Source: Thermoflexus hugenholtzii JAD2 (GTDB taxonomy: Bacteria; Chloroflexota; Chloroflexia; Chloroflexales; Roseiflexaceae). From it: DNA of 42,626 nucleotides. Position numbers and translations under genes: made by a program. The DNA lies in the NCBI GenBank assembly GCA_945881915.1, contig CAMCVW010000030.1, positions 1 to 42,626 on the forward strand. The letters run 5' to 3'. Shown here one piece after another: positions 4,909 through 42,626 of the stretch. Positions within the stretch are counted from its first letter, which is position 1, and each line of letters opens with the position of its first letter. A model generated the notes under the pieces. It did no database searches, was not told where the DNA came from, and saw only the letters and a program-made list of their open reading frames with translations.

Positions 4909-5328
4909 ATGGCCAGCCCGACGTACGTATTAAGCCAGTGTCCGAGTGCATCTGTGTGCGCAATTGCCGCACAGGCACTCGATTATGTGACGCCGCACAC
5001 AATCGAGATGATTAGTGGTCCCAAAGTAGCCATGGTGCAACTCCGCCTCAAAGAGAGTGTGGCCGAGACGGTCTTCAACGCTGGCGAAGTCCTCGTCACC
5101 GAGACGCGACTCGAGCTGAACGGCACGTTTGGATTCGGCATGATAGTCGGCAATCAGCCCGAGTTTTCGACCGCATTGGCACTCATCGATGCCTTGTTAC
5201 GCATCCCTGGCGAGCATACGGTGCTCCTCGAGGAGCAGATTGCCTGCCTGGCGGCAGAGCTGCAGCACCGACAACACGCACAATTCGCGGCGAGCAACAG
5301 TACCAAAGTCGAATTTGACACCTTCTAA
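4909..5328 (+). CDS. phnG: C-P lyase core subunit PhnG
   Basis: This 139-residue protein is the small PhnG subunit of the PhnGHIJ core complex. With PhnH, PhnI and PhnL it couples phosphonate to ATP, displacing adenine to give ribose 1-phosphonate triphosphate. Conserved features are TVFNAGEVLVTETRLELNG, GFGMIVGNQPEFSTALALID, and a tail ending in VEFDTF. I chose ATG 4909 because GGAG (4899-4902) lies 6 nt upstream. In-frame ATGs at 4882 and 4900 would give 148 or 142 residues and cannot be excluded. PhnH starts 7 bp after its stop. Confidence 0.9.
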   Translation: MASPTYVLSQCPSASVCAIAAQALDYVTPHTIEMISGPKVAMVQLRLKESVAETVFNAGEVLVTETRLELNGTFGFGMIVGNQPEFSTALALIDALLRIPGEHTVLLEEQIACLAAELQHRQHAQFAASNSTKVEFDTF

Positions 5329-40082: not shown

Positions 40083-40789
40083 GCACCCAACGCGTCTATC
40101 TGCACACACCCAAGCAGACCCACGTGGTCACGCAGGTTGTTGCAGTGCGATCGGGTGGCTTTGCGGTCAGTGCATCGCCATTTTTTGTGGGTGGTGGCGG
40201 GCAGCCGATGGATACTGGTGTGGTCAGTGTCGACGGGGTGAATCATCGTATCGAACACGTCGAGGTCGATGCGGATGACCACATTTGGCATCTGTCAGAC
40301 GTGTCACTCCGAACCGGCCAATCTGTCGACTTGGTCGTCGATCGGCAACGCCGGCAAACGCTGTCACGCTATCACACGGCGTTGCATGTACTCAATACGC
40401 TGGCACTGACGCACTACGATGCCTGGATAACGGGTGCGCAGATGACCGAGGAATACGCCCGCATTGATTTTGCAATTGCGTGGCTCGATCCCATCATGTT
40501 GGCTGATCTCGAAGCAAGGATGAACGCTGTGTTGACAGCCTATCATCCGGTGCAGTATCGGTCATTGACGGTGGCAGAGTTTGCCCAACGGCCCGATTTA
40601 TTGCGTACCAAAAATGTCCAGCCACCGGCGTATCGTGGTCAAGTGCGGGTGGTAGAGATCGAAGGGTTCGATGCACAGGCATGTGGCGGGACGCACGCCG
40701 AAAGTACGCACGAAGTAGGCCCTTGTCGCATCTACAAAAGCGAAAACAAAGGCAAACAAAACAAACGGCTCTACATTTGCTTTGCCTAG
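40079..40789 (+). CDS. Alanyl-tRNA editing protein AlaX
   Basis: The 236-residue zinc hydrolase removes serine or glycine wrongly attached to tRNA-Ala and is homologous to the editing domain of alanyl-tRNA synthetase. Zinc ligands are His99 and His103 (RYHTALHVL) and Cys202 and His206 (CGGTHAEST). GGGGQPMDTG near 38-47 binds the substrate end. It is a free-standing AlaX-M type without the synthetase. The ATG at 40079 overlaps the stop of the membrane protein gene. Its TAG stop and the TAG of the convergent DCC gene use the same CTAG. Confidence 0.94.
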   Translation: MSTQRVYLHTPKQTHVVTQVVAVRSGGFAVSASPFFVGGGGQPMDTGVVSVDGVNHRIEHVEVDADDHIWHLSDVSLRTGQSVDLVVDRQRRQTLSRYHTALHVLNTLALTHYDAWITGAQMTEEYARIDFAIAWLDPIMLADLEARMNAVLTAYHPVQYRSLTVAEFAQRPDLLRTKNVQPPAYRGQVRVVEIEGFDAQACGGTHAESTHEVGPCRIYKSENKGKQNKRLYICFA

Positions 40790-41187
40790 CGATCGCTGAG
40801 GAAGCGTTCACTATATTCAGGCAACGAAAGCATGCAGGACTCTTTTTGGCCGAACCAGATGTAACGGTTGCGGGCAACCCAGCGGTAGATCGGGTCACGC
40901 ACAAAACGTGGCACGATGCGCAGGACCGTTAAGTGACGCAATGGGGTTGAAAGCGTGCTGACCAGCATCAGTGCGGCATCACTGCCTTGGTAGGCGATGC
41001 TTTCGTGTACAAAAACCATGCTGATGAGTTCACTCGCGTTTATTCCGTAGCGGTTGCAGATTTTCGCTCCACTCGGGGATTGGAGTGCCGCAAATTGTAT
41101 ATTCGCAGCTGGGTCGCGGGGAATTACCCACTGCACGATTCCGGCGCACAGATTACACACTCCATCAAATAGTACTATTGAAGCCAT
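40786..41187 (-). CDS. DCC-family thiol-disulfide oxidoreductase
   Basis: The 133-residue protein is DUF393/DCC: FDGVCNLCAG holds Cys11 and Cys14, followed by FAALQSPSG and a terminal YRWVARNRYIWFG. Members are thioredoxin-like and some are membrane-linked redox proteins. ATG 41187 follows AAGGAGTGCGT; the longer in-frame extension runs through the neighbouring gene on the opposite strand. It diverges from the AhpD-like selenoprotein with only 69 bp between the start codons, so both may answer to the same redox signal. The stop overlaps the alaX stop in CTAG. Confidence 0.92.
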   Translation of the reverse strand: MASIVLFDGVCNLCAGIVQWVIPRDPAANIQFAALQSPSGAKICNRYGINASELISMVFVHESIAYQGSDAALMLVSTLSTPLRHLTVLRIVPRFVRDPIYRWVARNRYIWFGQKESCMLSLPEYSERFLSDR

Positions 41188-41256
41188 ACGCACTCCTTTA
41201 TCTGTATATACGGTACCATGTTCGTGTGAATGTGCAATGAGCTTCGGGAGGGTTGT

Positions 41257-41823
41257 ATGGCTTGGATTCGAATGATTCCAGAAGGGGAAGCAGAGGGCGA
41301 GCTCAAAGCAGAATATGCCGGCGCAATGGAGCCTTGGGGTGGTGTGGACAATATCATGAAAATCCACTCACTCAACGTCGCGACGCTCAAGGCGCATATG
41401 TTCATGTATGTCACCGTGATGCGCGGACCTTCGGACCTATCACGTGCCCAGCGTGAGATGATTGCCGTCGTCGTATCGGCGGCGAATCACTGCCATTACT
41501 GAATGACGCATCATGGACGGGGTCTCCGTCGCTTAACCAAAAATCCCGCTCTGGTACGCGCCCTCAAAAAAGACTGGCGCCGCGCACCCATCAGCGCCGC
41601 TGAACATGCCATGCTCACCTATGCCGAAAAACTGACTCTCACTCCCGGCATTATGGCCAAAACCGATGTGATGGCATTGCGCGCTGCGGGCTTCAATGAT
41701 ACTGCCATCCTCGATATCAACCAGGTGACTGGGTACTTCGCCTATGTGAATCGTCTGGCAGATGGGTTAGGTGTGCCGCTCGAGTCGTTTTGGCAAGATG
41801 TGGTCGAAGACGAAGATATGTAG
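41257..41823 (+). CDS. AhpD-family peroxidase-related selenoprotein (CxxU), read through TGA 41500-41502
   Basis: Reading TGA as selenocysteine gives one 188-residue protein of the AhpD-like, peroxidase-related family (carboxymuconolactone decarboxylase fold). It begins AWIRMIPEGEAEGELKAEY and has AQREMIAVVVSAANHCHY, Sec82, then MTHHGRGLRRLTKNP. The second half, AAGFNDTAILDINQVTGYFA, is the normal C-terminal part of the family. Sec82 falls exactly where homologues have the second Cys of CxxC (Cys79 is the first), the reactive thiol of AhpD. ATG 41257 follows GGGAGGG. A SECIS-like hairpin follows the TGA. No frameshift is needed and the frame stays open on both sides. The alternative, a decayed gene with one nonsense mutation, does not explain the hairpin. 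Standard gene finders will split it at 41502/41503, where an ATG follows the TGA by chance. Confidence 0.93.
41500..41530 (+). promoter_or_regulatory. Bacterial SECIS element for the in-frame UGA
   Basis: Eighteen nt after the UGA begins GGUCU (41521-41525), the loop of a perfect 5-bp stem, GACGG (41516-41520) with CCGUC (41526-41530). From memory, the E. coli fdhF SECIS has the same GGUCU loop also starting 18 nt after its UGA. Counting from U of UGA, G23 and U24, the loop bases contacted by SelB, are present. The bulged U17 of fdhF is not; a G stands there. Confidence 0.85.
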
Positions 41824-41971: not shown

Positions 41972-42508
41972 ATGAAGCAGAAACGGACGATGTACCGCCG
42001 CAATGGTGTGATGGTGTGGGGCCGGTACAATTCTCAGCGGAAACCGGGTCATGACTATCGGGCAAACGGGTATTATTTTGTGACATTGAATTCTGAGGGA
42101 CGGGAACCGGTATTGGGAGTGGTCGCCAGTGCCGTCATGACCGTGTCTCGCATTGGGGCAATGGTTTGGGAATGTTGGTATGAAATACCAAAACATTTTC
42201 CTTTTGTGAAGCTCGATGCGTGTATTGTCATGCCCGAGCATGTGCATGCAATCATCGTAATCGCGCACCCGCCAGATGCGGTACTCGCAGAGCAACCGGC
42301 ACATGGTACATCCCAGACGTTGGGGTCTATCGTGCGCGGTTGGAAGATTGGTGTCCGCAATTTGATGCAAGAGTGCGGAATCGATTTTGATTTGTGGCAG
42401 CGTGGCTTTCATGATCGGATTATCACGAGCGATGATGGATTATGGCGTGCTCGGCGGTATATATACAATAATCCGAAAAATTATAAGCGGAGACGGAGAA
42501 TTCACTGA
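41972..42508 (+). CDS. RAYT-type Y1 transposase (REP-associated tyrosine transposase)
   Basis: The 178-residue protein has the IS200/IS605-like Y1 fold: YYFVTLNSEGREP near 34-46, the HUH motif His90-x-His92 in MPEHVHAIIVI, LGSIVRGWKIGVRN, and WQRGFHDRIITSDDGL, then the candidate nucleophile Tyr163 or Tyr165 in RRYIYNNPKNY. A very basic tail (KRRRRIH) ends it. RAYTs cut and join at REP palindromes. GGAAGGAG precedes ATG 41972. No flanking REP hairpin is obvious in the 148 bp upstream. A (GTCA)n tract starts 6 bp after the stop codon. Confidence 0.88.
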   Translation: MKQKRTMYRRNGVMVWGRYNSQRKPGHDYRANGYYFVTLNSEGREPVLGVVASAVMTVSRIGAMVWECWYEIPKHFPFVKLDACIVMPEHVHAIIVIAHPPDAVLAEQPAHGTSQTLGSIVRGWKIGVRNLMQECGIDFDLWQRGFHDRIITSDDGLWRARRYIYNNPKNYKRRRRIH

Positions 42509-42514
42509 AAATTG

Positions 42515-42626
42515 TCAGTCAGTCAGTCAGTCAGTCAGTCAGTCAGTCAGTCAGTCAGTCAGTCAGTCAGTCAGTCAGTCAGTCAGTCAGTCAGTCAGTC
42601 AGTCAGTCAGTCAGTCAGTCAGTCAG
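42515..42626. repeat. Tetranucleotide microsatellite (TCAG)n to the window end
   Basis: About 28 perfect TCAG units (112 bp) begin 6 bp after the transposase stop codon and run off the window. The period is not a multiple of three, so it is not coding. Its perfection suggests recent expansion, and repeat length may be an assembly artefact or variable between cells. Confidence 0.95.

Follow-up and report, generated by a model that had tools for sequence, protein, structure and literature searches.

AhpD-like selenoproteins with a CxxU motif were described in 2005 from the Sargasso Sea data, where 27 sequences were found (PMC1088965), and they also occur in GOS (PMC2398784). A 2026 inventory lists the combination TIGR01926 / CxxU (MCB9421940.1) in its Table 1 and cites the Sargasso Sea paper for it (PMC13188914, PMC1088965). 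The gene studied here, at 41257-41823 on the forward strand of the window (the whole stretch of 42,626 nucleotides that was analysed), shares with the Sargasso Sea TIGR01926 selenoprotein the TIGRFAM, the CxxU motif, Sec at its second position and a downstream bacterial SECIS. It brings no new chemistry or architecture. What goes beyond the Sargasso Sea protein is that the genome around the gene could be seen to contain the complete Sec machinery, and that the gene was followed through one genus and phylum. The preliminary description rightly regarded AhpD-like selenoproteins as a known class, but the peroxidase-related subfamily, whose member here it held to be worth describing, is already catalogued as TIGR01926 CxxU (PMC13188914). 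New are the abundance across Chloroflexota, the repeated exchange of Sec and Cys and a variant without the first Cys.

The gene comprises 188 codons plus stop and contains a single internal TGA, at 41500-41502 (codon 82); re-reading the sequence confirmed the frame, the coordinates and the lone TGA as first reported. ORF calling with table 11 cuts it into 41230-41502 and 41503-41823. Since the orthologues in the genus all start with MAWI[RK]MI, we place the start at ATG 41257, which is preceded by GGGAGGG. In a profile search the joined protein scored 151.6 bits against TIGR01926 (cut-off 81.8), in agreement with the proposed identity as a peroxidase-related member of the AhpD family, and it also matches PF02627 CMD. 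NF041238 AhpD_rel_CFYUT and the AhpD-like (seleno)proteins of NF041047 / COG2128 are likewise AhpD-related and CxxU-bearing, but represent other subfamilies; with 58 bits against a cut-off of 175 the window protein is not a member of NF041238. The claimed motif C-H-Y-U occupies residues 79-82 and is followed by HH at residues 85-86. On the sequence evidence we are highly confident that 41257-41823 is a true selenoprotein gene, in which Sec is inserted at the UGA of one AhpD-like protein.

The homologues support this reading. From a search for relatives and a phylum sample we aligned 151 loci by protein, nearly all of them from Chloroflexota, and the column of codon 82 holds TGA in 100, TGC in 41, TGT in 10 and no other codon. 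The TGA therefore aligns with the Cys of homologues, as the preliminary description expected, and in every locus with a TGA there it sits at exactly this column. Further TGAs in the extracted frames lie 95-104 codons downstream and in one case 81 codons upstream, at the frame edges, and are most likely true stops. The TGA is kept in 9/9 genus orthologues found (own genome and eight others), and it is present at codon 82 in a Calditrichaeota MAG and several other Chloroflexota as well, so that chance, earlier judged unlikely, is not the explanation for it. In a sample of 400 Chloroflexota genomes, 67 of 117 strong TIGR01926 matches contain an internal TGA; apart from TGA, a single TAA is the sole internal stop among the 117, and the match concerned carries the TGA too. 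A sequencing error, or a pseudogene arisen by point mutation, would need just one base, as TGA is one base away from TGC and TGT. Such an accident is nevertheless of negligible probability, since the TGA recurs at this codon in nine members of the genus, each represented by its own MAG, and in many other Chloroflexota, and since purifying selection persists downstream of it. Pairwise dN/dS among the genus orthologues, a rough measure here with dS near saturation, is 0.012-0.068 before the UGA and 0.044-0.087 after it. The low values after the UGA indicate that translation past it is under selection, and judged from these ratios the protein constraint is similarly strong on either side.

The two open frames could also be taken at face value, as a split enzyme: translation of the first would stop at the UGA, and the AUG that directly abuts it (UGAAUG) would restart translation for the second through translational coupling. 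Both ORFs are intact in the window, and the codon next to the UGA is indeed ATG. However, ATG follows the TGA in only part of the Sec homologues, with CTG, GTC, AGG, ACG and others elsewhere, and the paralogue in the own genome also does without it. The break would moreover fall within CxxC, and 51 homologues have Cys in one continuous frame. We consider two polypeptides very improbable and a single selenoprotein the far better reading.

The bacterial SECIS model demands a loop of 3-9 nt, a stem of 4-16 bp, a G within the first two loop positions and 16-37 nt from UGA to loop, with an energy guideline of -7.5 kcal/mol or lower (PMC13188914). At 41516-41530 on the forward strand, the SECIS-type hairpin GACGG-GGUCU-CCGUC lies within the limits for loop (5 nt), stem (5 bp), G position and spacing (18 nt). 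It pairs 41516-41520 with 41526-41530. The 5-bp stem and GGUCU loop of the preliminary description hold, but it is the loop, and not the hairpin, that begins 18 nt downstream of the UGA; the stem begins after 13 nt. The likeness to the E. coli fdhF SECIS, given there as identical in loop and spacing, is almost correct: a 47-mer of fdhF, which was matched at that gene in 5368 of the 5426 E. coli genomes, has the loop AGGUCU 17 nt after the UGA, as counted on the matched 47-mer. An Rfam gathering scan of the whole window returned no matches. The hairpin alone reaches -6.1 kcal/mol, weaker than the guideline, and the surrounding 43-46 nt -8.0 to -8.4 kcal/mol (-8.4 for the 46 nt from the UGA). 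Compared with shuffled sequences the energy is unremarkable (z -0.09). Since the thermodynamics are not significant, we relied on conservation at synonymous sites and on the comparison of Sec and Cys loci. Across eight genus sequences, 18 of 127 degenerate codons with an invariant amino acid are also invariant as codons. Codons 85-91, which overlap the hairpin, are so in 7/7 cases, compared to 11/120 elsewhere, and form the only run of at least four such codons in the gene. A SECIS-like hairpin (loop and spacing rules, -5 kcal/mol or lower) was found at 94 of the 100 loci with Sec and at 20 of the 51 with Cys (Fisher 4e-13, for loci that are not independent). The frozen synonymous sites and the placement thus bear out the SECIS that had been predicted.

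The own genome (3.09 Mb, 98.6% complete) was predicted to carry selA, selB, selC and selD, and all four were found. The tRNA-Sec on contig C50 scored 59.1 bits against an Rfam cut-off of 47, and ARAGORN reads its anticodon as tca (UCA). SelA and selD reached 498 and 347 bits, the latter gene having its own in-frame TGA at SSAG-U-AAKMGP, and selB lies on a short contig (C55), which may account for its absence in some genus MAGs. In the genus, selA is above cut-off in 9 of 11 genomes, and selB is not above cut-off in 5 of 10 other MAGs (G001, G004, G005, G007, G010). Of these five, G004, G007 and G010 do have selA above cut-off, and G005 has it in fragmentary form, so the missing selB genes are probably gaps in fragmented assemblies. 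The starts of contigs C20 and C55 (L014 and L015) show the same match to the selB model, at bases 9-230 and with identical score; these stretches are probably copies of EF-Tu at which the assembly breaks. The complete pathway bears on whether the UGA might be read as an ordinary amino acid, either as Cys by a tRNA-Cys(UCA) or as Trp by a reassigned code. TGA exchanges only with Cys codons, a pattern that Cys insertion would also give. The genome nevertheless possesses a tRNA-Sec above the Rfam cut-off together with SelA, SelB and SelD, and the conserved hairpin provides what SelB requires. There is no reassignment of the code, because TGA is the normal stop of 13 of 34 other genes in the window. 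Reading as Cys or Trp is in our view hardly credible, and Sec remains the preferred residue at codon 82.

As to the protein itself, in M. tuberculosis AhpD and P. aeruginosa PA0269 the relay residues are Glu-Cys-Tyr/His-Cys-His (PMC3141380). All residues of this proton relay are present in the window protein as Glu67, Cys79, Tyr81, Sec82 and His86 (41455-41514, forward strand). Their spacing of 12/2/1/4 is identical to that of AhpD and PA0269, which have Cys for Sec, and Sec82 corresponds to the second Cys (Cys51 of PA0269, Cys133 of M. tuberculosis AhpD). Glu67 is found in 149 of 151 homologues and His86 in all 151. Relatives in the PDB recognised by sequence are 3c1l, 2pfx, 6k40 and 2oyo, with 3c1l and 2pfx the closest. 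The Cys-type TIGR01926 structures (3c1l, 2pfx, 2oyo, 2prr) and the AhpD structure 6k40 are homologous over most of the length, with E down to 6e-32; they share the position of CxxC but have Cys where the window protein has Sec.

We propose that SelB with Sec-tRNA(Sec) would bind the hairpin just past the UGA, so that Sec is inserted at residue 82 of a 188-residue protein with AhpD fold (CMD superfamily, TIGR01926). Cys79 and Sec82 would form the redox pair, in which Sec82 acts as the chalcogen of the Glu67-Cys79-Tyr81-Sec82-His86 relay, cycles with Cys79, and the pair reduces a hydroperoxide or the disulfide of a partner protein. We infer Sec incorporation in vivo as well as the peroxide/disulfide-reductase reaction, and hold the redox role to be likely by analogy with the described relay. 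M. tuberculosis AhpD differs in its topology and has an AhpC partner dedicated to it; such a partner was not recognised here. Among the 8 AhpC-TSA matches of the genome no canonical AhpC was recognised. The two that were scanned, as the likeliest peroxiredoxins, match the models for PrxQ/Bcp and for Tpx and are far short of AhpC TIGR03137. By eye, the remaining matches are TlpA/ResA-, Sco- and thioredoxin-like, and one is a UxxC selenoprotein candidate on contig C4. Since no canonical AhpC was recognised and PrxQ/Bcp and Tpx types are present, a classical AhpC/AhpD pair appears disfavoured, and direct hydroperoxide reduction or reduction of PrxQ/Tpx disulfides would be the favoured reaction.

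The gene neighbourhood gives a variable picture. No AhpC or other peroxiredoxin was found among the neighbours examined at six loci, and an operon with a peroxiredoxin was rejected for this reason. The divergent neighbour at 40786-41187 on the reverse strand encodes a DCC1-like thiol-disulfide oxidoreductase (PF04134), with which the preliminary description had paired the selenoprotein. The two genes do adjoin in 5 of 9 genus orthologues (own genome, L022, L023, L028, L038) and not in L024-L027, which have SSB, a phytase-like protein and DNA ligase, among others, as neighbours; as a conserved partner the DCC gene was therefore rejected. On the other side lies an ORF at 41972-42508 without Pfam match, which on its sequence we take for a REP-associated transposase; relatives of it are located beside the orthologous selenoprotein gene in L022 and L023. 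Just after this ORF the contig ends in 28 perfect GTCA copies (window 42514-42626).

Several other candidate Sec codons came to light. A scan of the 42-kb window for TGA-joined frames outside coding ORFs gave one weak candidate, at 4983-5321. In the whole genome, the PF02627 search found only two CMD-family proteins, both of them Sec forms. The second (G000:C39:9164-9727; L019, L063) is a TIGR01926 selenoprotein with CLY-U and Sec at the same column. The loop of its hairpin starts 24 nt after the UGA, each of the ten copies found in the genus retains the TGA, and by eye it adjoins a ParA-like gene. The AhpC-TSA/SelL-related candidate on contig C4 (L192, G000:C4:65872-66321) has an in-frame TGA at LRHFG-U-PFCRQ (UxxC) and is likely a fourth selenoprotein of the genome, beside selD and the two AhpD-like genes.

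A quick tree with long branches, on which Sec/Cys changes were counted without direction, requires at least 9 changes, of which at least 5 are forced by well-supported branches. One TIGR01926-like lineage with the motif GAP-U (L072, L073, L077) has Sec but lacks the first Cys of CxxU, and its Cys-type sisters (L179, L180, L183) are likewise without the first Cys. It is conceivable, as a tentative suggestion, that in Chloroflexota the AhpD fold serves as a Sec-dependent and AhpC-independent peroxidase or disulfide reductase, in which Sec would strengthen the weak direct activity of AhpD enough for the protein to act on its own, and that the protein of the GAP-U lineage might manage with a single Sec, its motif having no resolving Cys.

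For genes of this kind ordinary annotation produces two ORFs and conceals the active site. Since 67 of the 117 strong TIGR01926 matches have an in-frame TGA, truncated annotations are likely to be common in Chloroflexota. The repeated exchange of Sec and Cys within a small fold provides natural pairs for testing what Sec contributes to an AhpD-type enzyme.
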